A DNA stretch of 64,000 nt. Source: Kineosporia succinea. GTDB taxonomy: Bacteria; Actinomycetota; Actinomycetes; Actinomycetales; Kineosporiaceae. How positions within the stretch are numbered: the first letter of the stretch is position 1; the number at the start of each line of letters is the position of its first letter. A program made the translations under genes and the position numbers. The stretch is from positions 7,127,241-7,191,240 of the forward strand of contig NZ_JAUSQZ010000001.1 of assembly GCF_030811555.1 (NCBI RefSeq), given 5' to 3'. This document shows, one piece after another, positions 24,299 through 40,023 of the stretch. The notes under the pieces are model-generated. The model was not told where the DNA came from and searched no databases. It saw nothing but the letters and a program-made list of their open reading frames with translations.

Positions 24299-24471
24299 GC
24301 CGAAAGGGAGTCTGCCCAAGTGCGGATGCGGGGGTCACCGAACGGCGGACTTCGTTCACGCTGAGCGTTTTCCCCCGCCATCCGAGCAGGTCAGCGAATT
24401 GCGCGACACCTGACGGATCACCGCCCGGGACATTTCCGAAAGGCGATCCTCTTTCTGGTCAGTGCCATTGT

Positions 24472-24505: not shown

Positions 24506-24561
24506 TCAGAATCCCAGCCCGGCGGAACCGATCAGATCCCGCCATCCGGACAAGGACCGCC

Positions 24562-25236
24562 GTGACCGACGCCAGCCAGAACCGGCTCACCCGCGACAGC
24601 ACGTTCTCGCGGCGCACCGAGGCCGTGCTGCGCGACATGATCCTCGACGGGCAGATGGCCCCGGGCGAGCGCATCAACGAGGTCAGCCTGGCGCAGGCGC
24701 TGGGCATCAGCCGGGGCCCCCTGCGCGAGGCGATCCAGCGCCTGGCCGCCGAGGGCCTGCTCACGGTGATCAGTCACCGCGGCGCGTTCGTGCGCACGTT
24801 CGAGCGCTACCAGGTCGACGAGCTGTACGACCTGCGCACGGCCCTCGAGAGTCACGTGGTGCGGCTGGTGTGCCAACGGGCCACCGACGAAGAGGTCGCG
24901 GCGCTCGGCGAGCTGGTCCGCGAGACCGGGGCGATCATCTCGGCCTCCCCCGACGCCGCCTACCCGGCCGACCACGACCTGCACACCCGGTTGATCGAGC
25001 TGGCCCGCAACGAGACCATGGGCCGGGCCACGCTCGAGGCCCAGCGGCAGATCCAGCTGGCCCGGCGCATGTCGGCCAAGGCGCCGGCCCGGGCCCGCGA
25101 CGCACTGGGCGAGCACCAGGACCTCATCGCGGCCATCCAGCGCCGCGATGCCGACCGGGCCGCCGCCCTGATGACCGAGCACCTCGACGCCGCCCGTCGC
25201 GGCGCCCTCGACGCCCTGGGCTTCGCCGGGAGCTGA
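24562..25236 (+). CDS. FadR/FCD-type GntR transcriptional regulator
   Basis: 224 aa, GTG with AAGGA upstream. The winged helix contains INEVSLAQALGISRGPLREAIQRLAAEGLL (about residues 37-66). The all-helical FCD domain follows: LYDLRTALESHVVRLV, then the metal/ligand residues DHDLHTRLIELARN and GEHQDLIAAIQRRDAD. FCD regulators sense organic acids. It lies just upstream of, and co-directional with, the lyase/hydantoinase/amidase operon and is the best candidate for binding the shared operators. Its last ten codons form the first unit of a 44-bp tandem repeat array. Confidence 0.9.
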   Translation: MTDASQNRLTRDSTFSRRTEAVLRDMILDGQMAPGERINEVSLAQALGISRGPLREAIQRLAAEGLLTVISHRGAFVRTFERYQVDELYDLRTALESHVVRLVCQRATDEEVAALGELVRETGAIISASPDAAYPADHDLHTRLIELARNETMGRATLEAQRQIQLARRMSAKAPARARDALGEHQDLIAAIQRRDADRAAALMTEHLDAARRGALDALGFAGS

Positions 25237-25379
25237 CCGGCCCGGCGCAACTCGACGCCCTGAGCCTCGCCGAGAGCCGACCGGCCCAGGACATCTCGAC
25301 ACCCTGAGCCGCGCCGAGAGCCGACCGGCCCGGGACATCTCGACGCCCTGAGCTTCACCGAAGGCCCGGTCCGGGGCAT
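25207..25379. repeat. 44-bp tandem repeat array (4 units) running out of the GntR gene
   Basis: Units start at 25207, 25251, 25295 and 25339. The first three are 44 bp and the fourth is 41 bp because of a 3-base deletion. Each begins CTCGACgCCCTGaGC and ends GGaCAT or a variant. Unit 1 includes the last codons and stop of the GntR gene; in units 2 and 3 the TGA has become CGA. The array looks like serial duplication of the gene's 3' end. Because 44 is not a multiple of three, the copies do not extend the protein. Confidence 0.85.
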
Positions 25380-25781
25380 CTTGAGCCGGCCCGCCCCTCC
25401 ACTCCGGGCCGAGGGGTGAGCCCGCCGGCATCCGGGCTCCGGCAACCCCTTTCGTCCACATACATCTGAGGCCGACGTCGACCCGCCGGCGACCGGGACC
25501 CCCATCCGGTCCGGCGCACGTGAACCTCTCCGCGCCCCATTGTCCGATTCCTCACGGTCCAACCGCGCATCGTGACCGCTCGTCGTCATTCGCGTGGCGC
25601 CCGTCACCGCAAACTGTTGACAGTTGTCAGTCGACGGTTGAGGATTGCGGCACGGCAGTGGCGCCGCCCACATCGGGCAGGTGCCCCGGCCGCCGGATTC
25701 AGAACAGGCCGGCATCCGCCGAAGCCCGAACCGCCTGTGGCGGAGTGGCTCTGGGCGATGCTCGGAACTAAGGACGGATCG
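25380..25781. other. Leader region of the lyase/hydantoinase operon
   Basis: About 400 bases with no supportable gene. GC-rich inverted segments around 25385-25450 may terminate the GntR transcript. The operator/promoter lies at 25609-25645, leaving a leader of roughly 130 bases before the ATG at 25782. No riboswitch class is recognised in it. Confidence 0.5.
25609..25645 (+). promoter_or_regulatory. Operator-promoter of the lyase/hydantoinase/amidase operon
   Basis: AACTGT (25612-25617) and ACAGTT (25620-25625) are perfect inverted arms around TG. TTGACA within them (25617-25622) is a perfect -35 box, with GAGGAT (25640-25645) 17 bases on as a weak -10. The 17-mer GCAAACTGTTGACAGTT (25609-25625) recurs exactly at 28932-28948, which implies a common regulator that would block RNA polymerase. 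A second, degenerate GTCAGTCGAC lies directly downstream. Confidence 0.75.
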
Positions 25782-26666
25782 ATGACGACCACACGCCGAC
25801 TGCGTGAACTGCTCGGCTCCGACGGCCCCCCGCTCCTGCTCCCGGGCGCCCCCAACGCCCTGACGGCGCGGGTCGTGGAGGAGGCCGGCTTCGAGGCGGT
25901 CTATGTCTCCGGTGCTGGACTGACCAACACCTACCTGGGCATGCCCGACCTGGGGCTGCTGTCACTGACCGAACTCACCGCCCACGTCGCGTCCATCTCC
26001 GACACCGTCGGGATCCCCACGATGGTCGACGCCGACACCGGTTTCGGCAACGCACTCAACGTGCAGCGCACCGTGCGGATGCTGGAACGGGCCGGGGCCG
26101 CGGCCATTCAGCTCGAAGACCAGGTGAGCCCCAAGAAATGCGGGCATTTCGCCGGCAAGGAGGTCATCCCCCAGCAGGAGATGGTCGGCAAGATCAAGGC
26201 CGCCGTCGACGCCCGCGACGACCAGGACCTGGTGATCGTCGCCCGGACCGACGCGATCTCGACCGAGGGCCTCGACCGGGCCCTCGAGCGCATCGAGGCC
26301 TACCGCGACGCCGGGGCCGACGTCCTCTTCGTCGAGGCCCCGAACAACCACGAGCAGCTGCGCGCGGTCACCAGCACGGTTCCCGGCATCCACATGGCCA
26401 ACATGGTCGAGGGCGGGCTCACCCCCATCACCTCGCGGGCCGAGCTGGGAGAGCTGGGGTTCCGGATCGCGCTGTACGCCAACGCCGCCATGCGCGGCGC
26501 GGTCGCCGGCATGCGCCAGGTCATGCAGCACCTGGCCGAGCACGGCGACACCCGCGAGGCCGGTGATCTGATGATCAGCTGGGCGGACCGGCAGTCACTC
26601 GTCCGCAAGCCCGAGTTCGACCGGCTGGAGGCCCTTTACGCGGCCGGAGAGGGAGGAGCCGCATGA
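25782..26666 (+). CDS. Isocitrate lyase/PEP mutase-family C-C lyase
   Basis: 294 aa, ATG 25782 after AAGGACGG. Signature residues are metal-binding D83/D85 in MVDADTGFG, E112 in IQLEDQ and the catalytic loop KKCGH (118-122, C120). VSGAGLTNTYLGMPDLGLL lies at the active-site entrance. The family includes 2-methylisocitrate lyase, 2,3-dimethylmalate lyase, oxaloacetate decarboxylase and carboxyphosphonoenolpyruvate mutase; the Cys loop points to a C-C lyase. ATGA coupling to a hydantoinase-like gene is not the methylcitrate-cycle context. The proposed role is retro-aldol cleavage of a branched dicarboxylate at the end of the pathway. Confidence 0.88.
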   Translation: MTTTRRLRELLGSDGPPLLLPGAPNALTARVVEEAGFEAVYVSGAGLTNTYLGMPDLGLLSLTELTAHVASISDTVGIPTMVDADTGFGNALNVQRTVRMLERAGAAAIQLEDQVSPKKCGHFAGKEVIPQQEMVGKIKAAVDARDDQDLVIVARTDAISTEGLDRALERIEAYRDAGADVLFVEAPNNHEQLRAVTSTVPGIHMANMVEGGLTPITSRAELGELGFRIALYANAAMRGAVAGMRQVMQHLAEHGDTREAGDLMISWADRQSLVRKPEFDRLEALYAAGEGGAA

Positions 26667-28075
26667 CGGTCACCTACGACCTGCGCCTGCACGGCGGCCA
26701 GGTGTACCTGCACGGCAGCGGGGTCACCGCCGTCGACCTGCTGGTGCGCGAGGGCCGGATCGCCGCGATCGTGGAACCCGGCTTCGTCGCCGAGGCGAGC
26801 GAGACCGTCGACCTGAAGGGCAAACTCGTCCTTCCCGGCGCCATCGACCCGCACGTGCACCTGGGCAAGGACATCCGCGTCCCCAAGGACCCGGACGACG
26901 CCCTCCTGGAGTCCGCCTCGGCCGCCGCCGGCGGCATCACCTCGATGCTCGTCTACCTGATGAGCGGCGACAGCTACCAGGACATCGTCCCCGCGGCCCG
27001 GCAGGTGATGGAACAGGACTCGCACGTCGACTTCGGCTTCCACATCTGCGTCGGCTCGCAGCAGCACGTCGAGGAGATCCCCGGCTACATCCGTGAGTTC
27101 GGCATCTCCAGCTTCAAGTTCTTCATGAACTTCCGCGGCGAGGAGGGCGCCTACCTGGGACTGCCCGGCAACGACGACGGCTACATGTACGACGTCCTCG
27201 GCATGACCGCCGACCACGGGGCCATGGTCAACCCGCACCCCGAGAACATCGAGCTGGTCTGGAAACTCAAGAACCGCGTCATCGATTCCAGCCGTGGGCC
27301 GCTGAGCGAGTGGAACCAGTCCCGTCCCTCGTTCGTCGAGGCCGAGGCCGTGCAGCGGGTCGCCTACATGGCCTCCGTGACCGGCGCGTCCGTCTACGCC
27401 GTGCACACCAGCAGCACCCTCGCCCTGGAGGCCATGCGCCGGCAGCAGGAGAGCTACGAGAACCTCTTCGTCGAGACCTGCACGCATTACCTGACTCTCA
27501 CCACCGAGTCGAACGCCGGCACCTACGGCAAGGTCAACCCGCCCCTGCGCGAACGCGGCGACCTCGAGTCACTCTGGGTCGCCCTGGCGAACGGCCAGGT
27601 CGACACCGTCGGTTCCGACCACAACGCCCGGCACCGCTCCTTCAAGGAGAAGGACATCTGGAAGGCCAGCGCCGGCTTCCCGGGCACCGGCGGCGTGCTG
27701 CCGCTGACGCTCGCCGAGGGCCTGCGCCGCGGCGTCCCGATCGAGCGCCTGGTCGACGCGACCTCCACCCGCGCCGCCAAGCTGTTCGGGATGTATCCCC
27801 AGAAGGGCATCATCCGGGTCGGTTCGGACGCCGACCTGGCCGTCGTCGACCTCGACGGCTCCTACACGATCAACGCGGCCACCCAGCACTCCGGCGCCGA
27901 GTACACGCCGTGGGAGGGCACCGAGGTGCCCCTGCGGGTCGTCCACACCATCGTGCGGGGCCACTTCGCGATGAGGGACGGCGTGGTCGCCGACCGCCCG
28001 GGGGGCACCTACCTGCGACGCGAGAAGAGCGGGGCGACCGCGCTCGCCGCCACAGCCCTGGAGGACGACAAGTGA
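26663..28075 (+). CDS. Hydantoinase/dihydropyrimidinase-type cyclic amidohydrolase
   Basis: 470 aa, ATG coupled to the previous stop (ATGA). The binuclear-metal ligand set of the family is complete: H64 and H66 (DPHVH), carboxylatable K152 (SFKFFM), H192, H248 and D319 (GSDH). The barrel should hydrolyse a cyclic amide or imide such as a dihydropyrimidine, hydantoin, lactam or enamide. The substrate loops differ from classic dihydropyrimidinase (KFFMNFRGEEG instead of KMFMAYKG), so the ring may be unusual. It is coupled by GTGA to a carbamoyl-amidase-like gene, which would act on the ring-opened product. Confidence 0.88.
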   Translation: MTVTYDLRLHGGQVYLHGSGVTAVDLLVREGRIAAIVEPGFVAEASETVDLKGKLVLPGAIDPHVHLGKDIRVPKDPDDALLESASAAAGGITSMLVYLMSGDSYQDIVPAARQVMEQDSHVDFGFHICVGSQQHVEEIPGYIREFGISSFKFFMNFRGEEGAYLGLPGNDDGYMYDVLGMTADHGAMVNPHPENIELVWKLKNRVIDSSRGPLSEWNQSRPSFVEAEAVQRVAYMASVTGASVYAVHTSSTLALEAMRRQQESYENLFVETCTHYLTLTTESNAGTYGKVNPPLRERGDLESLWVALANGQVDTVGSDHNARHRSFKEKDIWKASAGFPGTGGVLPLTLAEGLRRGVPIERLVDATSTRAAKLFGMYPQKGIIRVGSDADLAVVDLDGSYTINAATQHSGAEYTPWEGTEVPLRVVHTIVRGHFAMRDGVVADRPGGTYLRREKSGATALAATALEDDK

Positions 28076-28746
28076 TCATCGACGATCTCACCCGTCAGCG
28101 GTACGAGGCAGCCGGTTTCGGCCGGCCCGTCGGACTCGGCAGCAAGCCCGGCCTGATGATCATCGATGTGCAGTACCGCACCGTCGGCACCACCCCGAAG
28201 CCGTTCGACGAGGCCCTCGAGGAGTTCACCACCAGCTGCGGCGAGGAGGGCTGGGCGGCCGTGCCGAACATCGCACGCCTGCTGGAGCTGTTCCGGGAGC
28301 GCGACTGGCCCGTCTTCTACCCGCACGTGGCCCCCAAGCAGAGCTACGACCAGGGCGCCCTGGGTGCGAAAGTCCCCGGGATCATGAACATCCCGGCCAA
28401 GGGCTACGAGTTCGTCGCCGAGGTCGCACCTCGCGAGGGCGACGTGCTGCTGCCCAAGCGCCACCCGAGCGCCTTCTTCGGCACTCCCCTGGCCAGTTAC
28501 CTGATCCAGTCGGGCATCGACACCCTGGTCGTCACCGGCTGCACCACCTCGGGCTGTGTGCGCGGCAGCGTGGTGGACGCGTTCTCCCTCAACTACAAGG
28601 TCGCGGTGCCCTCCGACGCCGTCTACGACCGCAGCCCGATCGTGCACGAGGTCAACCTCTTCGACATCGGCCAGAAGTACGCCGACGTCTCCACCACCAG
28701 CGACCTCCTCTCCAGCCTCGGCGCCCTGCCCGCCCGCGGCGCCTGA
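28072..28746 (+). CDS. Isochorismatase-family cysteine hydrolase (N-carbamoylsarcosine amidase-like)
   Basis: 224 aa, GTG overlapping the previous stop (GTGA). Catalytic triad: D32 (IIDVQ), K129 (LLPKRHPSAF) and C162 (TGCTTSGCVRGS), with the cis-peptide region before the Cys. The N-terminus YEAAGFGRPVGLGSKPGL resembles N-carbamoylsarcosine amidohydrolases. Such enzymes release ammonia (and CO2) from an amide or carbamoyl group. Following a cyclic amidohydrolase, it likely removes nitrogen from the opened ring. Last gene of the first transcription unit. Confidence 0.87.
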   Translation: MIIDDLTRQRYEAAGFGRPVGLGSKPGLMIIDVQYRTVGTTPKPFDEALEEFTTSCGEEGWAAVPNIARLLELFRERDWPVFYPHVAPKQSYDQGALGAKVPGIMNIPAKGYEFVAEVAPREGDVLLPKRHPSAFFGTPLASYLIQSGIDTLVVTGCTTSGCVRGSVVDAFSLNYKVAVPSDAVYDRSPIVHEVNLFDIGQKYADVSTTSDLLSSLGALPARGA

Positions 28747-28929
28747 AGACCGCCCGAAGGCCACCCGAAGGCCACCTGAGGCCACGGGCGGACGGGACCG
28801 GCCAACACCCCACCCGGCCGAAACCGAACGCCGCACAGGCCACCTCGGGTGACCGGCGCGTCCCCCGTTTCAACCACCTTTCGCACAGTTCGCCCCGACT
28901 CCCGCGTCATTCTTTTCGCCTCAGTACAA

Positions 28930-28969
28930 CTGCAAACTGTTGACAGTTTGCAGGCATCGTTCCTAACGT
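28930..28969 (+). promoter_or_regulatory. 24-bp perfect palindromic operator with embedded promoter
   Basis: Arms CTGCAAACTGT (28930-28940) and ACAGTTTGCAG (28943-28953) are perfect inverted copies around TG. TTGACA (28940-28945) is a perfect -35 box inside the palindrome, and TAACGT (28964-28969) at 18-base spacing is a good actinobacterial -10. Start of transcription is expected near 28976. The central 17-mer is identical to that at 25609-25625. It drives the 14-gene operon starting with the cupin gene. Confidence 0.85.
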
Positions 28970-28999
28970 GAGCGTCGTCATATCCAATGGAGGAGAGAC

Positions 29000-29020
29000 A
29001 TGCACGGAGACCACCGATGA
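29000..29020 (+). CDS. Possible 6-codon leader peptide (MHGDHR)
   Basis: ATG at 29000 follows GGAGGAGAGAC, the strongest ribosome-binding sequence in this leader. The frame codes for MHGDHR and stops with a TGA that overlaps the cupin ATG (ATGA). The cupin gene itself has only GGAG inside this mini-frame, so its translation may depend on coupling to the leader. It could also be fortuitous. Confidence 0.35.
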   Translation: MHGDHR

Positions 29021-29400
29021 GCGGCTACTGGGCCTCGCTGAGCGAGCTGCCCGAGCGTGAGGTGCTCCCCGGGAACTTCCGCACCGCCGTCTCCGGCCGC
29101 GAGATGAGCATCAACCAGATCCGCTGGGTGCACCCCACCGTGCTCCCCGAGCACACCCACCCGGACGCCGAGCAGGCCATGGTTCTCACCGCCGGCCGGA
29201 TCTCGTTCACCGTCGCCGGGCACGAAACCACCCTCCGGACCGGTGATGTCGTGATCATCCCGCGGGGCGTGCCGCACTCGGGCCGCAGCGTCGAGGGTGA
29301 GGCGACCTTCATCGAGATCTTCGCCCCCGCCCGGGTCGAGAACCTGCTCGGGTTCCTGGCCGGGCCCACCATGCCGTCTCCGGCCCCCGGAAAGGACTGA
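29017..29400 (+). CDS. Small cupin-domain protein
   Basis: 127 aa from ATG 29017; an in-frame ATG at 28987 lacks an RBS. Single cupin barrel with motif 1 HTHPDAEQAMVLTAG and motif 2 GDVVIIPRGVPHSG giving His/His/Glu/His metal ligands. Small stand-alone cupins serve as dioxygenases, isomerases or ligand sensors. First structural gene of the large operon behind the 24-bp palindrome, 5 bases before the MBL hydrolase gene. Substrate unknown. Confidence 0.85.
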   Translation: MSGYWASLSELPEREVLPGNFRTAVSGREMSINQIRWVHPTVLPEHTHPDAEQAMVLTAGRISFTVAGHETTLRTGDVVIIPRGVPHSGRSVEGEATFIEIFAPARVENLLGFLAGPTMPSPAPGKD

Positions 29401-29405
29401 CCCTC

Positions 29406-30269
29406 ATGAGCCTTCAGCAGATCAGCCCCCGGGTGCACGTCGAGGTCGCGAACCTCGGCAGCAACAACTCGATCATCACCGGCTCCGACGGCCTGGCCCT
29501 GGTGGACACCCCGCACCGCCCGAGTGACGCGATCGCCTGGCGCCACGTCGCCGACGGTTTCGGCCGCACCCGCTTCGTGGTCAACACCGACCACCACCCC
29601 GACCACACCATCGGCAACTTCTGGCAGGGCGGCGAGGTCGTCGCGCACCGCGGCACCCGCGAAAGACTGCTCCACGACGCGCCTTCCGATCAGTACCTGC
29701 ACGACCTGATGGCCCGCATCGACCCCGAGGCCCTGCCCCTGATGGCCGAGTACTCGGTGCGGGTGCCGGAGGTCGTGTTCAGCGAGCGTCTCGAACTCCA
29801 CCTCGGCGACGTGCACCTGGAACTGACCTTCCAGCCCGGGCACACGGCCAACAGCCTCATCGCCTACCTCCCGCAGGACAGGGTCGTGTTCACCGGCGAC
29901 ATCGTGTGCGAGGCCGGCCTGCCCTCGTTCCAGGACTCCCGGCTGTGGAACTGGTTCGACGCCATCGACGCGGTCGCCGCCTACGACTTCGAGGTCCTCG
30001 TACCCGGCCACGGCGAGGTCGCCGACCGCACCGTGCTGGAGCAGTACCGGGCCCAGGGCCGGGAGGTGGTGGCCGAGGTCGCCGCCGCCATCGCGGCCGG
30101 CCACGAGAGCGCCCAGGCCTGCGACGAGATCCGTTTCCCCGACAACATCCACGTCGACACCGAGGACTACGTCGGCTACCCCGACGAGCTCTGCGAGGTC
30201 TTCCAGCGGCGCTCGATCGCCCGCATCTACGAGGACCTGCTCGAACGGCCGGACCTCTCCACGCGCTGA
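29406..30269 (+). CDS. MBL-fold metallo-hydrolase
   Basis: 287 aa, ATG. Metallo-beta-lactamase fold: N-terminal strands NNSIITGSDGLALVDT, metal motif TDHHPDHTIGN (residues 61-71), PGHTANSL, TGDIV and VLVPGHGEV. The usual HxHxDH is DHHPDH, with Asp62 at the first ligand position, a variation seen in some family branches. Such enzymes hydrolyse lactones, thioesters or esters, or act as oxygenases. It is followed by an ABC importer; lactone or thioester hydrolysis in the same pathway is plausible. Confidence 0.85.
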   Translation: MSLQQISPRVHVEVANLGSNNSIITGSDGLALVDTPHRPSDAIAWRHVADGFGRTRFVVNTDHHPDHTIGNFWQGGEVVAHRGTRERLLHDAPSDQYLHDLMARIDPEALPLMAEYSVRVPEVVFSERLELHLGDVHLELTFQPGHTANSLIAYLPQDRVVFTGDIVCEAGLPSFQDSRLWNWFDAIDAVAAYDFEVLVPGHGEVADRTVLEQYRAQGREVVAEVAAAIAAGHESAQACDEIRFPDNIHVDTEDYVGYPDELCEVFQRRSIARIYEDLLERPDLSTR

Positions 30270-30355
30270 GAACCGTTCCCCCGCACCACCTGTGATGCAC
30301 CACTGCCCTGATGCACCCCGCCCCCACCCCTTCACGTTTCGATCCGGAGCGTCCC

Positions 30356-31507
30356 ATGCGCATCAACAAGACCGCCCTCGCCGTCGTCACCGCGGCCACT
30401 CTCTCCCTCACCGCCTGCGGCGGTGGCAGCAGCTCCGGCTCCGGTGACACCGGCAGCGGGGGCGGGGCCGACGGCCAGGCCAAGGTCGACGCCGCCCAGA
30501 AGGTCATCGACGCGGCCAAGGCCGTGCCGACCACCGAGGACCTGGGCGCGGCCATCGACGTCGCCTCGCTCAAGGGCAAGACCATCTACAGCATCCCCAT
30601 CGACAGCAAGGCCGAGTTCTACACCGCCGGTGAGAAGGCGATGAAGGAGGTCGCGGCCAAGGCCGGCGTCAACTTCGTGACCTTCCCCTCCGACGGCTCG
30701 CAGACCTCGTACCAGCAGGGCATCTCGCAGGCCATCAACGCCAAGGCCGGGGCGATCCTGCTCAACGGGCCGCTGCCGACCACCCTCGGCCCGCAGATCG
30801 ACGCGGCGAACAAGGCCGGTATCCCGGTGATCCCGCTGCACCTGACCGACAAGGACAGCCCCTCGGCCGACGGCATCGAGTACGAGGCGTTCGCCCCGTT
30901 CAACGAGGCCGCGAAGCTGATGGCGCTCGACGCCGTGGTCGGCGCCAAGGGCGAGGCGGTGCACGCGCTGATCATCCAGTCGTCCGAGACCGGGCCGGCC
31001 AAGGGCATGGTCGAGACGATGGAGAAGACGCTCTCCGACGACGCGCCCTCCGGTTCCAAGGCGACCGTGGTGAACGTGGCCGTGCCGCAGTGGTCCACGC
31101 AGATCCAGGGCCAGGTCCAGTCGGCGCTGCTGAAGGACCCGAAGATCAACGCCGTGCTGCCGATCTACGACTCGATGGCGCTGTACGCGATCCCGGGCAT
31201 CAAGCAGGCCGCGAGCAACCGCGAGGTGCCGATCTACTCGTTCAACGGCACCCCGTCGATCCTCAAGCTGGTGCAGGACGGCTCGGTGGCGATGGACGTG
31301 GCCGAGAACCCCGACTGGGTGGCCTACGTCAACATCGACACCGCGTTCCGGGCCATGCTCGGCGCCGACCCGATCGCCAAGGCGTCCGGCCCGCTGCGCG
31401 TCATCGACTCGTCCAACGTCGCCGACACGGGCAACCCGCCGGAGAGCGGCAAGGGCTTCGGTGACGAGTACCAGGGCGCGTTCCTCAAGGTGTGGGGCCT
31501 GAGCTGA
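30356..31507 (+). CDS. Sugar-type ABC transporter substrate-binding lipoprotein
   Basis: 383 aa, ATG 30356 with GGAG upstream. Lipoprotein signal with lipobox SLTAC (C21) and a Gly/Ser tether. The mature protein is a type-I periplasmic binding fold related to RbsB: KTIYSIPIDSKAEFYTAGEKAM, ISQAINAKAGAILLNGP and IDAANKAGIPVIPLH. It delivers the substrate to the following ATPase and permease. Although the family is called sugar-binding, members also bind autoinducer-2, purines and other small polar compounds, so the ligand is open. Confidence 0.9.
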   Translation: MRINKTALAVVTAATLSLTACGGGSSSGSGDTGSGGGADGQAKVDAAQKVIDAAKAVPTTEDLGAAIDVASLKGKTIYSIPIDSKAEFYTAGEKAMKEVAAKAGVNFVTFPSDGSQTSYQQGISQAINAKAGAILLNGPLPTTLGPQIDAANKAGIPVIPLHLTDKDSPSADGIEYEAFAPFNEAAKLMALDAVVGAKGEAVHALIIQSSETGPAKGMVETMEKTLSDDAPSGSKATVVNVAVPQWSTQIQGQVQSALLKDPKINAVLPIYDSMALYAIPGIKQAASNREVPIYSFNGTPSILKLVQDGSVAMDVAENPDWVAYVNIDTAFRAMLGADPIAKASGPLRVIDSSNVADTGNPPESGKGFGDEYQGAFLKVWGLS

Positions 31508-33045
31508 TGGAGACTCAGCCGCTCCTGGCGGTCAAGGGCCTGAAGAAGTCGTTCAACGGCGTTCCCGCCCTGCACGGTGTCGACATCGACGTCCGCCCGG
31601 GCGAGGTGCACGGCCTGCTCGGTGCGAACGGCAGCGGAAAGTCCACGCTGATCAAGATTCTCGCGGGGTTCCACGACGGTGACGGCGGTACGGTCACCGT
31701 GCACGGCACCACCGTCTCCAGCCCGTTCGGCCCCCGGGGCCTGCGTGACCAGGGTCTGGGCTTCGTGCACCAGGACCTGGGACTGGCCCCGGCCGGCACG
31801 GTGCTGGAGCACATGGCTCTCGACGCCGAGGGTGAGTCGAAGGGCTGGCGCCGGGTCGGCTGGAAGGCCGAGCGGGCCCGGGTGCAGGACCTGCTCGACC
31901 GGTTCCAGATCGACGTCGACCCGGACGCCACCATCGACATGCTCACCCCGGTGCAGCGGGCGATGGTCGCGGTGATCCGGGCGGTGGGTGGCCAGGAAGC
32001 CACACCGCACGCCGAAAGGGCCGGGCAGATCCTGGTTCTCGACGAGCCGACGGTGTTCCTGCCCCGGCAGGAGGTCGGCCTGCTGTTCGACGTGCTGCAC
32101 CGGCTGCGTGACCGCGGCGACGCGGTGCTGCTGGTCAGTCACGACCTGGACGAGATCCTCGAGGTCACCGACCGGGTGACGGTCTTCCGCAACGGGAGCA
32201 CGGCCGGCACCCGCTCCACCACCGGCGCCACCCGCGACGACCTGGTGCAGCTGATCCTCGGCGCCCGCGACGAGCACGTGGCCAAGGGCCGGGCGGTGGT
32301 CCGGGACGACCGGCCACCCCTGCTCGCGGCGCGCGGCATCACCGGCACCCGGGTGCGCGACCTCGACCTGGAGCTGTACTCCGGCGAGGTCGTGGGCCTG
32401 ACCGGTCTCGCCGGTTCGGGTTTCGAGGAACTGCCGGAGCTGCTGTTCGGGTCGAAGCTGCCCAAGCAGGGCACCGTGGAGCACGGTGGCGAGACCGTCA
32501 AACGGCCGAGCCCGGCGAGAAGCATGGACGCCGGTGTCGTCCTCATCCCCAGCGACCGCAAGAACCAGGGCGGGGCCCAGGAACTCAGCGTGCTGGAGAA
32601 CATGTCGGTGCCGTTCCTGGCCAAGGCCCAGGGCGGCTGGAAGATCCCCTGGAAGAAGCTCGAGCACCAGTCGCAGGAGACCTGCGACCGGCTGAACGTG
32701 GTGCCGCCCAACCCGCAGGCCATGTTCGGGCACCTGTCCGGCGGCAACCAGCAGAAGGCCCTGCTGGGCAAGTGGATGGACACCAGCCCCACGGTGATGC
32801 TGCTCAGCGAGCCGACCCAGGGCGTCGACATCGGCGCCCGGCGGGAGATCTTCAAGCTCATCCGCTCGGCGGTGGCCCAGGGCATGGCCGTGCTGTGCGC
32901 CACCTCCGACTACGAGCAGCTGGTCGAGATGGCCGACCGCGTCCTGGTTCTCGACGACGGCCGGGTACGGGCCGAGCTCCTGGGCGACGACATCACCAAG
33001 GACGCCCTGGCGTCCGCCGTCTACGCGGAAGAGGCAGCATCATGA
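31507..33045 (+). CDS. RbsA-type ABC importer ATPase (two ABC domains)
   Basis: 512 aa; the ATG overlaps the previous stop (TGATG). Domain 1 has a canonical Walker A (GANGSGKSTL) and Walker B (LVLDEPTVF), but an irregular signature (LTPVQRAMV instead of LSGGQ). Domain 2 has a degenerate Walker A (GLAGSGFEEL) and a good signature (LSGGNQQK). This asymmetry is normal for RbsA/MglA-type ATPases. Cytoplasmic, coupled to the permease that starts at its stop. Confidence 0.93.
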   Translation: METQPLLAVKGLKKSFNGVPALHGVDIDVRPGEVHGLLGANGSGKSTLIKILAGFHDGDGGTVTVHGTTVSSPFGPRGLRDQGLGFVHQDLGLAPAGTVLEHMALDAEGESKGWRRVGWKAERARVQDLLDRFQIDVDPDATIDMLTPVQRAMVAVIRAVGGQEATPHAERAGQILVLDEPTVFLPRQEVGLLFDVLHRLRDRGDAVLLVSHDLDEILEVTDRVTVFRNGSTAGTRSTTGATRDDLVQLILGARDEHVAKGRAVVRDDRPPLLAARGITGTRVRDLDLELYSGEVVGLTGLAGSGFEELPELLFGSKLPKQGTVEHGGETVKRPSPARSMDAGVVLIPSDRKNQGGAQELSVLENMSVPFLAKAQGGWKIPWKKLEHQSQETCDRLNVVPPNPQAMFGHLSGGNQQKALLGKWMDTSPTVMLLSEPTQGVDIGARREIFKLIRSAVAQGMAVLCATSDYEQLVEMADRVLVLDDGRVRAELLGDDITKDALASAVYAEEAAS

Positions 33046-34070
33046 GCGCGATCCAGAAGGAGGCCCCGCCCGTGGCCACAGCCTCGCGAACCTCGGCCAA
33101 GAAACCCGCCGAGCCGGAACGTTTCGCCCTCCTCGGCGTCTGGCTCGTGCTGATCGTGGCGTTCTGCCTGATCGTGCCGGAGACCTTCCCGACCACCGGC
33201 AACCTGTCGAACATGCTGGGCTCGCAGGTGGTCCTGCTGATCCTGGCGCTGGCCCTGCTGATCCCGCTGCGGGCCGGCGACTACGACCTCTCGGTGGCCT
33301 CCACGCTCAACCTGTCCACGGTCGTCGTGGCGGTGCTGAACGTGAACCAGGGCTGGGGCATCTGGCCCTCGGTGCTCGTCGCGATCCTCGCCAGCCTGCT
33401 CGTGGGCGTCGTGAACGGGTTCATCATCACGAAGTTCGCGATCGACCCGTTCATCGTCACGCTGGGCATCGGGACCGTCGTCCAGGGCCTGATCTACTAC
33501 CTGTCGAACTCCTCCACGATCAGTGGCGTCGACCGCGTCCTCACCGACGTCGTCCTCACGCAGCCGTTCCTCGGCATCCCGATCGGCTTCTACTACGCGA
33601 TCGCCCTATGCGCGGTGGTCTGGTACGTGTTCGACCACACCGCTTTCGGCCAGCGGCTGCTCTTCGTCGGGCAGAGCCGTGACGTGGCCCGCCTCAACGG
33701 CGTCAACGTGTCCGGCCTGCGCTGGACCTCGATGATCACCTCGGCCGGTCTGGCCGGGGTCGCCGGTGTCGTCTACGCCGGCACCACGGCCAGCGCCGAC
33801 CCGGTCTCGGGCCAGGCGTTCCTGCTCCCGGCGTTCGCGGCCTGCTTCCTCGGCTCGACCGTGCTGCGCATCGGCCGGTTCAACCCGGTCGGCACGTTGA
33901 TCGCCGTCTACTTCCTGGTCACCGGTATCACCGGACTGCAGCTGATGGGCGCCCAGCAGTACGTGCAGCAGCTCTTCTACGGCGGCGCCCTCGTCATCGC
34001 CGTGATCCTGTCCAAGCTCGTCCGTAGTCGCGGTGAACGTAAGCGCCGCGCCCAGATCCAGCCTTCCTAA
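33042..34070 (+). CDS. RbsC-type ABC transporter permease
   Basis: 342 aa, ATG overlapping the ATPase stop (ATGA). About eight to ten transmembrane helices. LALLIPLRAGDYDLSVASTLNLS, the NGFIITKFAIDPFIVTLGIGT loop and the coupling region LFVGQSRDVARLNGVNVSGLRW are typical of the BPD_transp_2 family. A basic C-terminus (SRGERKRRAQ) follows the last helix. The stop is TAA, uncommon in this genome region. Confidence 0.92.
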   Translation: MSAIQKEAPPVATASRTSAKKPAEPERFALLGVWLVLIVAFCLIVPETFPTTGNLSNMLGSQVVLLILALALLIPLRAGDYDLSVASTLNLSTVVVAVLNVNQGWGIWPSVLVAILASLLVGVVNGFIITKFAIDPFIVTLGIGTVVQGLIYYLSNSSTISGVDRVLTDVVLTQPFLGIPIGFYYAIALCAVVWYVFDHTAFGQRLLFVGQSRDVARLNGVNVSGLRWTSMITSAGLAGVAGVVYAGTTASADPVSGQAFLLPAFAACFLGSTVLRIGRFNPVGTLIAVYFLVTGITGLQLMGAQQYVQQLFYGGALVIAVILSKLVRSRGERKRRAQIQPS

Positions 34071-34081
34071 GGAGAACCGAC

Positions 34082-35194
34082 ATGCGGGCACGCGGAGCCG
34101 TCATTCACGAGGTCGGCAAGGAGTGGCAGGTCCAGGACCTCGAACTGGGCGAGCCGAACGACACCGAGGTGCGGGTCAAGGTGATGGCCAGCGGGCTGTG
34201 CCACTCGGACGACCACTTCGTCACCGGTGACATCCCCGTCACCCTGCCGATGGTCGGTGGGCACGAGGGCGCGGGCATCGTCGAGGCCGTCGGCTCGAAG
34301 GTGACCCGGGTCAAGCCCGGCGACCACGTGGCCACCCTGTTCATCCCGGCCTGCGGGCACTGTCGCTACTGCGCCACCGGCCGCTCGTACATCTGCGACA
34401 ACGGCGCGGGCATGGAGCACGGCAAGTCGCTCGACGGCACGTACCGGTTCTTCGACACCGACGGCAACGGCATCGGCGGCGTCACCCGGCTCGGAACCTT
34501 CTCGAACTATCTGGTGTGCAACGAGAATCAGACCGTCAAGCTGCCCGAGGACATCCCGTTCGAGCTGGCCTGCCTGGCCTCGTGCGGAGTCGCGACCGGC
34601 TTCGGCGCGGCGGTCAACGGTGGCCCGGTGCGGCCCGGTGACGTGGTGCTGGTGGCCGGTCTGGGCGGTGTCGGTGCGAACGCGGTGCAGGGCGCGAAGA
34701 TCGCCGGGGCGGCGCACATCATCGTGGTCGACCCGAGCGAGTACAAGGTCGGGCGGGCCGCCGACTTCGGGGCCACGGCCGCCTTCAAGAGCCTGGACGA
34801 GGCCCGGCCGCTCATCGCCCACCTCACCAACGGCCAGGGCGTGGACGTCGGCATCGTCACCGTCGGCCGCGTGGACGGCGACATCATCGGCTCCGTCTTC
34901 GAGGCCGTGGGCAAGGCCGGCCGGCTGGTGCTGGTCTCGGTCGGCTCGTACGAGAAGTCGCTGACGATCAGCCCGCAGGACCTGACCAACTTCGCCAAGT
35001 CCATCCAGGGCGTCATGTACGGCAACTGCAACCCGGTCGTCGACATCCCCCGGCTGCTGGGCCTGTACCGCGACGGCCGGCTCAAGCTCGAGGAGCTGGT
35101 GACCCGCCGCTACAAGCTCGACGAGATCAACCAGGCCGTGGCCGACATGCACGCCGGGAAGAACATCCGCGGCGTCGTCGTGCACGAGCACTAG
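34082..35194 (+). CDS. Zinc alcohol dehydrogenase, NDMA-dependent type
   Basis: 370 aa, ATG with AAGGAG upstream. Catalytic zinc ligands C40, H61/E62 and a later Cys; structural zinc set C91, C94, C97, C105. Nucleotide loop GLGGVGANAVQGA. The overall pattern (GLCHSDDHFVTGDIP, MEHGKSLDGTYRF) matches the actinobacterial NDMA-dependent group, which holds a tightly bound NAD and often needs mycofactocin-linked re-oxidation. It should oxidise an alcohol of the pathway to an aldehyde for the following dehydrogenase. No mycofactocin genes are in the window. Confidence 0.88.
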   Translation: MRARGAVIHEVGKEWQVQDLELGEPNDTEVRVKVMASGLCHSDDHFVTGDIPVTLPMVGGHEGAGIVEAVGSKVTRVKPGDHVATLFIPACGHCRYCATGRSYICDNGAGMEHGKSLDGTYRFFDTDGNGIGGVTRLGTFSNYLVCNENQTVKLPEDIPFELACLASCGVATGFGAAVNGGPVRPGDVVLVAGLGGVGANAVQGAKIAGAAHIIVVDPSEYKVGRAADFGATAAFKSLDEARPLIAHLTNGQGVDVGIVTVGRVDGDIIGSVFEAVGKAGRLVLVSVGSYEKSLTISPQDLTNFAKSIQGVMYGNCNPVVDIPRLLGLYRDGRLKLEELVTRRYKLDEINQAVADMHAGKNIRGVVVHEH

Positions 35195-35215
35195 GTCCTA
35201 GAAGGAGCTTCAGAC

Positions 35216-36667
35216 ATGAGCAACATCGAGTTCACGCGCCTGCACATCGGCGGCGAATGGGTCGACGCCCTCGACGGCGCCGAGTTCGAGACGGTCAACC
35301 CGGCCACCGGCGAGGTCATCACCAAGGTCTCCGAGGCCAAGGCCGCCGACGTCGACCGGGCGGTCAAGGCCGCCCGCGAGGCGTTCGAGAACGGCCCCTG
35401 GTCGCGGATGAAGCCGAAGGAGCGGGCCGCCGCCCTCTGGCGCCTGGGTGACCTGCTGGTCGCCGACGCCGAGGAGATGGGCCGCATCGAGACCCTCGAC
35501 CAGGGCAAGCCCTACCTGGCCGCCAAGAACGGCGACGTGCCCACCGCCGCGGGCCTTTTCCACTACATGTCCGGGTACGCCACCAAGATCGAGGGCGAGA
35601 CCATCCCGATCTCGGCCCCCGGCGACTACCACACCTACACCCGCCGCGAGGCGCTCGGCGTGGTCGGCCTGATCGTGCCCTGGAACTTCCCGCTCGTCAT
35701 CACCGCCTGGAAGGTCGCCCCGGCGCTGGCCGCGGGCAACACGGTGGTGCTGAAGCCGGCCGAGGCGACACCGCTGAGCGCCCTGCGCCTGGCCCATCTC
35801 GCTCTCGAAGCGGGCATCCCGCCGGGTGTTCTCAACGTCGTGACCGGTTTCGGCTCCGGCGCCGGTGCGGCCCTGAGCGTACACCCTGACGTGGACAAGG
35901 TCTCGTTCACCGGCTCCACCGCCACCGGGCGGCGCATCCTCGAGGCGGCCGGCGGCAACCTCAAGCGGGTCACGCTGGAGCTGGGCGGCAAGAGCGCCAA
36001 CATCATCTTCCCGGACGCCGACCTGGAGGCCGCGATCGCCGGTTCCAGCGACGCGATCTTCTACAACGCCGGGCAGGCCTGCGCCGCCGGCTCGCGCCTG
36101 TACATCCACGAGGACGTCTACGACGAGGTCGTGGCCGGCCTGGTCGCCAAGGCCCAGGCCATCACGGTGGGTGACGGGTTCGACGAGTCCAGCGAGATCG
36201 GCCCGGTGGCGAGCAAGGAGCACTTCGAGCGGGTGAGCAACTACCTGCGCATCGGGGCCGAGGAGGGCACGATCGCGACCGGCGGCAACCGGATCGGCGA
36301 GAAGGGGTACTTCCTCGAGCCCACGATCATCACGGGCACGAGTGAGGACGCGCGGGTCGTCAAGGAGGAGATCTTCGGTCCGGTGGTGGTCGCCACCAAG
36401 TTCACGACCGAGGCCGAGGTCGTCCAGCTGGCCAACGATTCCCGCTACGGCCTGGCCGCGGGCGTCTGGACCAGCAACGTGGCGACCGCCCACCGGGTGG
36501 CGAACAAGCTGCGCGCGGGCACGGTGTGGGTCAACGCGTACGGCGTCTTCGACCCGAGCATGCCGTTCGGCGGCATGAAGGAGTCGGGCTGGGGCCGGGA
36601 GATGGGCCACGAGGTGCTGCACGACTACACCGACGTCAAGACGGTCTGCGTCAGCATCGCCGAGTAG
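35216..36667 (+). CDS. Aldehyde dehydrogenase
   Basis: 483 aa, ATG with AAGGAGC upstream. Catalytic residues are present: N157 (PWNFP), general base E255 (LELGGKS) and nucleophile C289 (NAGQACAAGS). The cofactor motif is GSTATGRRI. It oxidises an aldehyde to an acid with NAD(P)+ and would follow the adjacent alcohol dehydrogenase. Specific substrate not determined. Confidence 0.93.
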   Translation: MSNIEFTRLHIGGEWVDALDGAEFETVNPATGEVITKVSEAKAADVDRAVKAAREAFENGPWSRMKPKERAAALWRLGDLLVADAEEMGRIETLDQGKPYLAAKNGDVPTAAGLFHYMSGYATKIEGETIPISAPGDYHTYTRREALGVVGLIVPWNFPLVITAWKVAPALAAGNTVVLKPAEATPLSALRLAHLALEAGIPPGVLNVVTGFGSGAGAALSVHPDVDKVSFTGSTATGRRILEAAGGNLKRVTLELGGKSANIIFPDADLEAAIAGSSDAIFYNAGQACAAGSRLYIHEDVYDEVVAGLVAKAQAITVGDGFDESSEIGPVASKEHFERVSNYLRIGAEEGTIATGGNRIGEKGYFLEPTIITGTSEDARVVKEEIFGPVVVATKFTTEAEVVQLANDSRYGLAAGVWTSNVATAHRVANKLRAGTVWVNAYGVFDPSMPFGGMKESGWGREMGHEVLHDYTDVKTVCVSIAE

Positions 36668-36672
36668 TCACC

Positions 36673-37368
36673 GTGCCCGATCACTTCGCCGGGGTCGTGC
36701 CGATCGACCGCAGCAACCTCACCCTGGCCGACCAGGTGGAGGCCCGGCTGCGGGAACAGATCGTGCAGGGCCACTTCTCCCCCGGCGTCCGGCTCAACGA
36801 GGGTGAGATCGCCCAGTCGCTGGGCACCAGCCGGGGACCGGTGCGGGAGGCGCTGCGGCGCCTGGAGCACCACGGCCTGGTCACGGTCGAACCGCACCGC
36901 GGGGCGTTCGTGCGGCGGCTCGACCTGGCCGAGGTGCGCGAGCTGTTCGAGGTCCGGATCGCGCTCGAGAGCGAGGCCGCCGACCTGGCGGCCTCGCGCC
37001 TCGACCGCACCGGCACCAGCCTGCTGCTCGACCTGCAGCACCACGCCGAGCACGAGGTCAGCCAGGGCCAGCAGACGGTGGTGTTCGACCGGCACGACCT
37101 GCACGAGGCCATCGTGCGTCTGGCCGGCAACCAGCGGCTGGCCCAGGCCGTCACCCAGATCAACGTGGAGCTGCGGCTGGCCCGCTCGCGCTCCGGCGCC
37201 GACGGGCCCCGCACGAAGCACGCCGCGCACGAGCACCGACTGCTGGTCGAGCAGCTCACGGCCGGCGACCGGGCCGGGGCCGCCCGGGCCATGCGCGAGC
37301 ACCTCACCGCCTCCCTGCAGAACACCATCCAGCTGCTCTACCGCCGTGACGGAACGGAACTCGCATGA
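36673..37368 (+). CDS. Second FadR/FCD-type GntR regulator
   Basis: 231 aa, GTG start 5 bases after the previous stop. Winged helix LNEGEIAQSLGTSRGPVREALRRLEHHGLV; FCD helices with LFEVRIALESEAADLA, FDRHDLHEAIVRLAGN and AAHEHRLLVEQLTAGD. It is embedded in the operon and coupled to the next gene by ATGA, so it is co-expressed with the enzymes. With the GntR at 24562 this gives two acid-sensing repressors in one locus. Which one binds the shared palindromes is open. Confidence 0.9.
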   Translation: MPDHFAGVVPIDRSNLTLADQVEARLREQIVQGHFSPGVRLNEGEIAQSLGTSRGPVREALRRLEHHGLVTVEPHRGAFVRRLDLAEVRELFEVRIALESEAADLAASRLDRTGTSLLLDLQHHAEHEVSQGQQTVVFDRHDLHEAIVRLAGNQRLAQAVTQINVELRLARSRSGADGPRTKHAAHEHRLLVEQLTAGDRAGAARAMREHLTASLQNTIQLLYRRDGTELA

Positions 37369-38450
37369 CGCACACCATCTTCCAGCCCTGGCGGCTGGGC
37401 CGGGCCGAGCTCGCGAACCGGGTCGTGATGGCCCCGATGACCCGCAACCGGGCCGACGTGCGCGGGGTGCTCCCCGCGTCCGCCGTCACCTACTACGAAC
37501 AGCGGGCCGGGGCCGGGCTGATCATCAGCGAGGCCACCCAGCCCAGCGCCGCGGGCCAGGGCTACCCGGGCACGCCGGGCATCCACGACGACGCCCAGCA
37601 GGAGGTCTGGGCCCAGGTCGCCGACGCCGTGCACGCCCGCGGCGGGCGGATCTTCTGCCAGCTCATGCACACCGGGCGGATCAGCCACGAGAGCCTGCTG
37701 CCGCCGGGCGTTCCCGTGGTCGCGCCCTCGGCGGTGCGGGCCGACCTGGAGGTCGAGACGCTCGACGGCGCCAAGGTGCCCGCCCCGATGCCGAAAGAGC
37801 TCACGGTCGAGGAGATCCGGCAGACCATCGAGGACTTCGCCGCAGCCGCCCGGCGCGCCGTCGACGCCGGGATGGACGGGGTGGAGCTCCACGGCGCCAA
37901 CGGCTACCTGCTGCACCAGTTCCTCTCCCCCGGCACCAACCGGCGCACCGACGCCTACGGCGGAACACCTGGCAACCGGGCCCGTTTCGTGGTCGAGCTG
38001 GTGCAGGCCGTGGCCGAGCGGATCGGCGCCGACCGGGTGGGCCTGCGCATCTCCCCCGGCGGCCAGTTCAACGACATGGCCGACAAGGACAACGACGACA
38101 CCTACCTGGCCCTCGTCGAGGCGCTCCAGGCCGTGAGACCCGCCTACCTGCACACCCTCCGGCGCCGGTCGTCGCGGCTGCACGAGCAGGTCCGCGACCT
38201 GTGGCCGACCACGTACATCATGAACACCGGGTACCTGGGGTCCAGCGAACTGGACGACCTGGAGCCCATTCTCGCGGGCGGGCAGGCCGACCTGGTCAGC
38301 GTCGGGCGGCTCTTCATCGCCAACCCCGACCTGCTCGAGCGCTGGCGCCACGACCACCCGCGCGCGGCCTGGGACGAGGACACGTTCTACACCGGCGGCG
38401 ACCGGGGCTACATCGACTACCCGGCAATCGGCACGCACAAGGAGAACTGA
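37365..38450 (+). CDS. Old yellow enzyme-type NADH:flavin oxidoreductase
   Basis: 361 aa, ATG overlapping the regulator stop (ATGA). FMN-binding barrel: IFQPWRLGRAELANRVVMAPMTRNRA, CQLMHTGRISH, ELHGANGYLLHQFLSPGTNRRTDAYGG (His-x-x-Asn pair and Tyr of the active site) and a C-terminal GQADLVSVGRLFIANPDL phosphate site. It lacks the Fe-S extension of dienoyl-CoA reductases. Expected to reduce an activated C=C bond with NAD(P)H. Confidence 0.92.
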   Translation: MTHTIFQPWRLGRAELANRVVMAPMTRNRADVRGVLPASAVTYYEQRAGAGLIISEATQPSAAGQGYPGTPGIHDDAQQEVWAQVADAVHARGGRIFCQLMHTGRISHESLLPPGVPVVAPSAVRADLEVETLDGAKVPAPMPKELTVEEIRQTIEDFAAAARRAVDAGMDGVELHGANGYLLHQFLSPGTNRRTDAYGGTPGNRARFVVELVQAVAERIGADRVGLRISPGGQFNDMADKDNDDTYLALVEALQAVRPAYLHTLRRRSSRLHEQVRDLWPTTYIMNTGYLGSSELDDLEPILAGGQADLVSVGRLFIANPDLLERWRHDHPRAAWDEDTFYTGGDRGYIDYPAIGTHKEN

Positions 38451-39199
38451 TGACCGACACCATCCCCGCCCCCTTCGCCGGCCGCGTGGTCGTCGTCACC
38501 GGCACCGCGTCCGGGATCGGCGCCGCCACCGCCGACGTGTTCCGCCGTCAGGGCGCGGCCGTCGTCGGCTGGGACATCAGCGGCACCCCCGAGGCCGGCC
38601 CCCTCGACCTGACCGACGCCACGGCCGTGAAGGCGGCCGGTGCCCGGGTTCTCGAGCAGCACGGACGCGTGGACGCCCTGGTCAACTGCGCCGGGGTGAT
38701 CACGCCGAACCTGCCCGCGGAAGAGGTCGACCCGGCCGATTTCCAGAAGTGCTTCAGCGTCAACGTGGTCGGCACGCTCAACGCCAGCCAGGCCCTGTAC
38801 GCGGCGCTCGCCGCCTCGAAGGGCGCGATCGTCAACGTCGCCTCGCAGGCCGCGCTCGTCTGCCTGCCGCAGCAGTCGGCGTACTCGGCGTCGAAGGGGG
38901 CCGTCGCGGCCCTGACCCGCTCGCTGGCCGTCGACTGGGCCTCGGCCGGCGTCCGCGTGAACGCGGTCTGCCCGGGCTTCACGCTCACCCCGATGGCTGT
39001 TCAGCAGATGACGCCCGAGCTGGACGCCGCGGTGTCCCGGCGGGTTCCGCTCGGCCGGATGTTCCAGCCCGACGAGATCGGTTCCGTCATCGCGTTCCTC
39101 GCCTCCACCGGCGCCTCGGCCGTGACCGGCGTGGTCATGGCCGTCGACGGCGGCTGGACGGCCGGCGAGCCCGCGCTGCCGATGGGCGGCGAGGCATGA
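38450..39199 (+). CDS. Short-chain dehydrogenase/reductase
   Basis: 249 aa; the ATG shares a base with the previous stop (TGATG). Classical SDR: VVTGTASGIGAA cofactor loop, NCAG, Ser in NVASQAA, YSASK catalytic Tyr/Lys and NAVCPGF. Unusually short NAD-binding middle (GWDISGTPEAGPLDLTDA), as in 3-oxoacyl-like and polyol SDRs; the Asp after strand 2 favours NAD+. Coupled to the next SDR by ATGA. Confidence 0.92.
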   Translation: MTDTIPAPFAGRVVVVTGTASGIGAATADVFRRQGAAVVGWDISGTPEAGPLDLTDATAVKAAGARVLEQHGRVDALVNCAGVITPNLPAEEVDPADFQKCFSVNVVGTLNASQALYAALAASKGAIVNVASQAALVCLPQQSAYSASKGAVAALTRSLAVDWASAGVRVNAVCPGFTLTPMAVQQMTPELDAAVSRRVPLGRMFQPDEIGSVIAFLASTGASAVTGVVMAVDGGWTAGEPALPMGGEA

Positions 39200-39945
39200 G
39201 CGTCGCCTACGTGACCGGGGCCAGCTCGGGGATCGGCCGGGGGGCCGCCGTGCGCCTGGCCGAGGACGGGTACCGCGTGGTGCTGCTCGGCCGTTCCCAG
39301 GAGCGGCTGGCCGACGCCGCCGCCGAGTGCGGGCCGGACGCCTACTACGCCGCGTTCGACGCCACCTCGGCCGAGGCCGTCGATCGCGAACTGCCCTCTC
39401 TGCTGGAGCAGTACGGCGCTCCCGACGTGGTGGTGCACGCCGCCGGGCAGACCGTGGTCGGGGCCCTCGACCAGCTGACGCCCCAGCAGTGGCACCAGCA
39501 GATGGACGTCAACCTGACGAGCATCTACCTGCTCAACCGGCACCTGTGGCCGGCCCAGGTCGCGGCGGGTGGCGGTTCGGTCGTGCTCATCGCCTCCACC
39601 GCCTCGTTCGCCGCCTTCCCCCAGGACGCGGCCTACGTGGCCTCGAAGGGGGCCGTGCTCGCCCTGACCAAGGCGATGGCCCTGGACGGGGCGCCGGCCG
39701 GGATCCGGGTCAACGCGGTGTGTCCCGGATTCATCCTGACGCCCAACCTGCAGGGCTATTTCGATGCGCAGGACGATCCGGCGGCGGCCTCGGGCGGGGC
39801 GGCGGCCGCCGCTCCCCTGGGCCGGATGGGCACGCCGGCCGACGTCGCCGGGGCCATCGCGTTCCTCGCCTCACCGGCGTCGTCGTTCGTGACCGGCACC
39901 TCGCTGCTCGTCGACGGCGGCCTGATGGCCCGCGTCCCCGGCTGA
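39196..39945 (+). CDS. Short-chain dehydrogenase/reductase
   Basis: 249 aa, ATGA-coupled to the SDR before it. YVTGASSGIGRGAA loop, Arg after strand 2 (LLGRSQERL) suggesting NADPH, VHAAG, IASTASF, YVASK and NAVCPGF. It is not a recent duplicate of its neighbour: cofactor preference and C-terminus (GYFDAQDDPAAASGG) differ. Substrate unknown; acts on a hydroxy/keto intermediate of the pathway. Confidence 0.92.
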   Translation: MSVAYVTGASSGIGRGAAVRLAEDGYRVVLLGRSQERLADAAAECGPDAYYAAFDATSAEAVDRELPSLLEQYGAPDVVVHAAGQTVVGALDQLTPQQWHQQMDVNLTSIYLLNRHLWPAQVAAGGGSVVLIASTASFAAFPQDAAYVASKGAVLALTKAMALDGAPAGIRVNAVCPGFILTPNLQGYFDAQDDPAAASGGAAAAAPLGRMGTPADVAGAIAFLASPASSFVTGTSLLVDGGLMARVPG

Positions 39946-40023
39946 CGAAGCCCTCCCCCGCCGTCCCGGCCCGATGCCCAGCCCCACGGGCGTGTGGCCA
40001 ACTTCCTGGAAAGGTGCTCGACG

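Follow-up and report, generated by a model that had tools for sequence, protein, structure and literature searches.

Excerpts of three articles describe the closest comparable systems. According to the survey in PMC4494728, operators of the FadR subfamily are GT/AC palindromes, with a 2-nt spacing for GntR, HpxS, HypR, MdcY, PrpR and UxuR. For 23 orthologous groups the survey also describes additional, weaker half-sites at a distance of 7-12 nt from the centre, whose role it left open. The VanR-type FCD repressor Atu1419 of Agrobacterium fabrum has the operator ATGTATACAT, present in three copies in two promoter regions, and tetramer looping was shown for that system (PMC7797058). The motif of HypR from Streptomyces coelicolor, CTNTGC(A/C)ATGTCAC, has an unclear symmetry and covers the -10 region of the regulator's own promoter; metal-binding FCD domains are described in the same article (PMC6608401).

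By comparison across related loci, we recognise in Kineosporia succinea a real, conserved element, very probably the operator of a GntR-type repressor, that is fused to a -35 box and duplicated in its gene cluster. The window, to which positions refer unless a locus is named, is the whole stretch of 64,000 nucleotides that was analysed, and the 24-bp operator sequence is CTGCAAACTGT-TG-ACAGTTTGCAG (Table 1). As in the FadR-subfamily operators of the excerpted survey (PMC4494728), GT and AC are 2 nt apart and weaker extra half-sites are present. CTGT-TG-ACAG is found in both window sites (in the relatives GT and AC are conserved by construction, being letters of the search core), and the extra left box AACTG and right box CAGTT start roughly 9 nt from the centre. 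Of the TKGT/ACMA boxes, KGT/ACM is present as TGT/ACA, whereas the outermost T/A is C/G here (CTGT/ACAG); the half-site AACTGT has C where the TKGT box has T. A further difference from the operators of that excerpt is that the central TG stands in the direction of transcription and overlaps TTGACA.

With Atu1419 the locus shares a candidate FCD repressor, short identical palindromes over promoter elements and more than one promoter in the regulon, whereas the sites given in the Atu1419 excerpt lie over the -10 box or in the spacer and not on the -35, and the pathway is another one (PMC7797058). HypR, as far as the excerpt describes it, is an actinobacterial FCD repressor of a catabolic operon with predicted metal-binding histidines (PMC6608401), and the candidate repressor of the locus would be another. 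The 14-mer core was not found as uninterrupted text in the open-licence papers searched, and searches of these papers by gene content, by FCD regulators and promoters and by PmiR/PrpR found no description of the regulon and operator. The switch is of a known general kind and no new kind of regulation; its target-gene set was not found described.

Table 1. Coordinates of the operators, promoters and genes of the cluster, numbered from the first nucleotide of the window.
Feature	Position	Strand	Remarks
GntR1, GntR/FCD regulator	24562..25236	+	Proposed repressor of both operators; Pfam GntR and FCD
Second operator	25607..25630 (core 25612-25625)	+	Before the lyase-hydantoinase-isochorismatase genes; block conserved in same-genus genome G001
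Second-operator promoter	25617..25645	+	-35 TTGACA 25617-25622, 17-base spacer, -10 GAGGAT 25640-25645
Lyase, PEP mutase / methylisocitrate lyase superfamily	25782..26666	+	First gene behind the second operator
Hydantoinase/dihydropyrimidinase-like amidohydrolase	26663..28075	+	Below curated cut-offs
Isochorismatase-family hydrolase	28123..28746	+	Start approximate
Left outer half-site AACTG	28928..28932	+	7 bp outside the inner half-site; perfect in the window
24-bp palindromic operator before the cupin-led operon	28930..28953	+	Arms CTGCAAACTGT / ACAGTTTGCAG
Operator core AACTGTTGACAGTT	28935..28948	+	2 exact genome copies; at most one mismatch in 33/37 related loci
-35 box TTGACA	28940..28945	+	Inside the operator
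Right outer half-site CAGGC (consensus CAGTT)	28951..28955	+	7 bp outside the inner half-site; CAG kept (28951-28953)
-10 box TAACGT	28964..28969	+	18-base spacer
Cupin-domain protein	29017..29400	+	First gene behind the palindrome; start supported by relatives
Rest of proposed operon	29406..44110	+	MBL-fold protein, sugar-type ABC transporter, NDMA-dependent alcohol dehydrogenase, aldehyde dehydrogenase, GntR2, OYE-type reductase, two SDRs, FAD dehydrogenase, two MmgE/PrpD-family genes
GntR2, GntR/FCD paralogue	36673..37368	+	Possible second binder; 36% identity to GntR1

The operator and its second copy

A preliminary description of this DNA, made from its letters, had reported a perfect palindrome around TG, and it is indeed there: the 11-bp arms match with zero mismatches, so that 22 of the 24 positions are paired, the central TG being unpairable. 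The same description named this one site; there are two operators. When the window was searched with the 24-mer at up to three mismatches, the query found itself on both strands and one other place, the second operator of Table 1, while 100 dinucleotide shuffles of the window gave no match. The exact core AACTGTTGACAGTT is common to both copies. Across the genome (8,065,021 bases) the pattern AACTGTNNACAGTT occurs exactly only twice, both times in this cluster. Two more occurrences have one mismatch, and up to two mismatches there are 30 in all, against 23 for a reversed control pattern. The second copy is separated from the ATG of the lyase gene by 151 bases and the first copy from the cupin gene by 63. 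With its centre set to NN and up to two mismatches, the 24-mer matched none of five further genomes of the genus. This is due to variation in the outer boxes, and the core is the better query.

In a same-genus relative (L003 / L075) the isochorismatase and cupin genes lie directly next to each other, with no operator ahead of the latter; the two transcription units thus appear to be fused there.

Recurrence in related loci

Relatives of the hydantoinase-like protein were sought in one genome per species. This gave 37 related loci, ranging from Kineosporia babensis (86%) to metagenome-assembled genomes at 32-56% and including Streptomyces, Nocardia, Pseudonocardia, Aeromicrobium, Dietzia, Arthrobacter and Brevibacterium, and all 37 were scanned. 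The core with at most one mismatch was found at 54 sites in 33 loci, whereas 150 palindromes with permuted half-sites averaged 0.34 sites over the same loci. One permuted palindrome, TTGACANNTGTCAA, was an outlier with 15 sites in 13 loci; by our reading it overlaps real sites through the right outer box. No core at this threshold was found in loci L031, L036, L037 and L038. The last three also lack any GntR1 match, and the match in L031 reaches only 35% and has a different HTH.

Since sites were chosen by at most one mismatch to 12 fixed core bases, conservation of the core itself is circular, and the independent evidence lies in the centre, the flanks, the -10 box and the locus counts. Dropping sites more than 80% identical to one already kept reduced 56 sites to 48 non-redundant ones. 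Oriented by their central dinucleotide, 47 of these 48 have TG and one, in Brevibacterium (L034), has CG. Loci were fetched with 10 kb on each side, the stretch for which absences of genes hold. The lyase query used to map their genes was shifted by one base from the reading frame, so lyase matches are under-scored; the PrpD query contained stops, and some query starts were approximate.

A class-wide, even draw of 394 genomes gave a view beyond these loci. With the seven best first-look candidates per genome scored for GntR1, three genomes had the regulator (E 1e-45 or better), one of them the window's own, and all three carried two or three exact copies with a TG/CA centre. Among the other 391 genomes, 11 had one AACTGTNNACAGTT copy each, with a TG/CA centre in two (G077 and G360). 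The reversed control pattern matches many of the 394 genomes (uncounted), so single core matches are expected by chance. The recurring candidate regulon spans Streptomyces, Nocardia, Pseudonocardia, Aeromicrobium, Dietzia, Kineosporia and others.

Candidate regulators

Both GntR genes of the cluster, at 24562 and 36673, had been named as candidate binders, and the comparison favours the first. GntR1 scores above the gathering thresholds for PF00392 (62.3 bits) and PF07729 (89.8 bits), and a homologue is present in 32 of the 33 site-bearing loci, with identities of 36-37% in L025 and L034. We consider it quite probable that the palindrome is the operator of GntR1 and that this protein represses both transcription units. 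One dimer would sit on AACTGT and ACAGTT, the inverted inner half-sites on either side of TG, and further subunits may bind with the help of the weaker half-sites that lie 7 bp farther out to the left and right. GntR1 on the operator would exclude RNA polymerase, because the operator shares its centre with the -35 hexamer and extends on the right into the spacer between -35 and -10. Through the second operator, built to the same design, GntR1 would also control the lyase-hydantoinase-isochorismatase unit, and both units would turn on together once an effector, probably a carboxylate of the pathway, releases the protein. Comparison of the loci shows a conserved element with its layout of half-sites, a promoter in register with it and two target promoters; we infer GntR1 as the binder, repression over activation, and the effector.

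The main alternative, to which we give real but clearly minor weight, is that GntR2 reads the operators, alone or with GntR1, through a common half-site specificity, the two perhaps sensing two metabolites. The paralogues agree at R37, E40, S50-P53, R55, R60 and H72-G74 (in 10 of 10 GntR2 sequences, that of L034 being left out). The HTH is conserved across 34 GntR1 sequences, and most of its conserved positions are common to GntR2; the GntR1 set includes the window's own protein and some near-identical ones and leaves out L025, L031 and L034. The one site-bearing locus without a GntR1 homologue, L032, has an operator and only a GntR2-type protein, which counts against GntR1 as the binder. So does G077, which has the same site context as L032 and a best GntR1 match of 37% identity. 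However, GntR2 was found in only 9 of the 33 site-bearing loci (10 with a 42% partial match in L034). It is missing from between the adjoining ALDH and OYE genes in eight loci that have GntR1 and operators (L007, L008, L020, L021, L022, L026, L027 and L028), and in the fetched stretches of L009-L016, L033 and L039, too, GntR2 is absent and GntR1 and operators are present.

A further point against GntR1 is the Streptomyces-like genome G360, which has no close GntR1 and carries the same operator with a -10 box TACCGT before a RidA-like gene (L073, position 9828). This site belongs to another, unrelated gene cluster with its own distant FCD-type GntR, gene names being assigned by eye. The sites of G077 and G360 indicate that the specificity is probably common to a wider branch of FCD regulators.

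Among known structures, PDB 7xp0/7xp1 is the best sequence match of both GntR1 and GntR2 (E 1.8e-27, nearly the whole length). We take these entries to be PmiR of Pseudomonas aeruginosa, a 2-methylisocitrate sensor. The likeness lies in the GntR-family sequence, and the proposed target genes here include one for a lyase of the methylisocitrate lyase superfamily. PDB 6z74 and others among the GntR1 matches are presumably structures of Atu1419. Residues D139, H141, H185 and H207 are invariant in 34 of 34 GntR1 sequences. Matched by pattern, they resemble the FCD metal site, which would fit a carboxylate effector.

The operator precedes GntR1 in other genera, for example in L004-L008. About 60 bases upstream of GntR1 in the window, at 24491-24505, lies TGTCGACTGTCGACA, a 15-bp odd palindrome with a TGT-NN-ACA core. 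This repeat has no counterpart in the same-genus alignment, and autoregulation of GntR1 in the window's genome is not claimed.

Overlap with the promoter

TTGACA had been placed at the centre of the palindrome with TAACGT following after an 18-base spacer, and both stand exactly so. TTGACA-18-TAACGT has the form of a sigma-70-type (housekeeping) promoter; a simple but stricter promoter scanner did not list it, because TAACGT matches TATAAT at three positions and the scanner needs four. Transcription would start near 28976. At the lyase promoter of the same-genus genome G001 the -10 box is GAGTAT, and operator and -10 region are kept as one block.

NANNNT follows TTGACA at a spacer of 17 (19 sites) or 18 (19 sites) in 38 of the 48 sites, against 1 to 8 of 48 at seven control offsets. 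Only 7 of the 38 have T in the first position, so most are weak -10 boxes. The other ten sites have no -10 box at spacers 17-19 and count against reading the element as operator and promoter in one. They are L017 12906, L018 8992 and 12853, L020 8995, L021 8994, L026 8988, L030 1519, L032 8614, L034 7884 (spacer 16) and L039 4604; the L030 site has one mismatch and lies outside the mapped genes. In Prauserella (L017 and L018) an extra one-mismatch copy on the other strand stands between divergent genes, its TTGACA pointing at GntR1. The single site of Arthrobacter (L025) faces away from GntR1 and the hydantoinase gene, towards minus-strand dehydrogenase genes, which is another point against the main reading.

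The recurring in-register -10 box and the site orientations support the view that a single sequence serves as operator centre and as -35 box; many natural variants illustrate how the two can coincide. The earlier suggestion that a GntR protein on the palindrome would block the promoter centred on it fits the comparison, given the -10 box in 38 of 48 sites and the GntR1 homologue in 32 of 33 loci. Activation by the bound regulator, or activation combined with repression, in place of simple repression is improbable. Some FCD regulators do act from upstream sites (CitO, in the excerpt of PMC6608401), but here the site lies in register over the -35 box itself and some of the spacer, where a bound protein should keep polymerase out.

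Half-sites and palindromicity

Beyond the core, two groups of outer letters are prominent at 7-bp steps, AACTG (left) and CAGTT (right). They were analysed in 51 sites, after loci L074 and L076 had been added. The right box had a mean of 3.63 of 5 matches, with at least four in 29 of the 51 sites and at most 1.73 at other right offsets. The left box was clearly weaker: its mean was 2.51 of 5, 10 of the 51 sites had at least four matches, and no other left offset exceeded 1.55. In the opposite orientation the same letters gave 2.1 and 2.24 of 5 right at the core edge, scores to which the core and the CAG box contribute their own letters. The element consists of a 14-bp core flanked by weaker half-sites, and the 24-bp palindrome combines the inner operator with portions of both outer half-sites. 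The role of such extra half-sites, here at a constant 7-bp step, was left open in the excerpted survey (PMC4494728).

A more elaborate arrangement appears rather unlikely to us. Here two paralogous FCD regulators would act on a four-half-site array locked to the -35 box, and cooperative loading of two dimers, perhaps with contact between the operators 3.3 kb apart, would set a sharp switch for an undescribed actinobacterial regulon that breaks down some cyclic amide or ureide.

The preliminary description had called the length and perfection of the palindrome exceptional. This holds in part: with arms of at least 11 and gaps up to 8 the window has three perfect inverted repeats (at 28930 with gap 2, at 22038 and 36971 with gap 5), and 40 first-order Markov resamples gave a mean of 0.75 and a maximum of 4. 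Within the operator class the perfect extension is unusual, arms of at least 11 occurring in only 3 of 61 measured sites, some loci being counted twice. These are the site of the window, a Micromonospora site with arms of 11 (L039) and a site with arms of 16 in L074; arms of 6 or 7 prevail in the class. Palindromicity was dropped as the main argument, since perfect repeats of such size are insufficiently rare by themselves; palindromic perfection alone is weak evidence, and recurrence carries the case.

The site in L074 (2319-2352) is the cupin operator of genome G043, and its 16-bp perfect arms around TG exceed those of the window. The repeats at 22038 and 36971 have perfect 11-bp arms with 5-bp loops, and that at 36971 lies inside the GntR2 gene.

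The perfect 11-bp arms could also pair, as in a hairpin (terminator or attenuator) or a recombination or replication element. We hold this to be very unlikely: the loop would have only two bases, there is no T run, and no terminator-like site was found in 24000-43000. The TG centre and in-register -10 box recur in the relatives, most of which have the short arms noted above. Pure chance, for which the 0.75 perfect repeats expected per window might speak, can be set aside, because the core recurs in 33 of 37 related loci and permuted palindromes average 0.34 sites.

Target genes and pathway

The palindrome had been described as heading a 15-kb operon, and the layout agrees. The genes from 29017 to 44110 lie on the + strand and form the proposed operon, the apparent gap at 38451-39190 being filled by an SDR gene at about 38462-39187. 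Against NCBIfam, the enzymes fall below the curated cut-offs except for the NDMA-dependent alcohol dehydrogenase (483 against 440 bits). In Streptomyces (L009) and Pseudonocardia (L023) the first gene behind one operator is a metabolite:H+ symporter-like gene. With a transporter, a hydantoinase-like ring opener, an isochorismatase-type hydrolase, a lyase and an FAD dehydrogenase, the gene set may serve to take up and break down a cyclic amide or ureide. With a GntR regulator, a defined candidate operator and two target promoters, inducer and pathway could be found by binding and growth tests.

Between promoter and cupin gene, at 29000-29020, a 6-codon ORF (MHGDHR) with a GGAGG-type ribosome site overlaps the cupin start codon with its end. 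A leader-peptide reading was rejected, since by eye no such ORF was seen at the same promoter in six relatives; it may be due to chance.

The proposed operon ends in two tandem MmgE/PrpD-family genes at 41382-44110, with likely starts at 41382 and 42743. In L032, a mycofactocin-like cluster recognised by eye (795-4923) lies on the opposite strand, near the catabolic cluster with its NDMA-dependent alcohol dehydrogenase.
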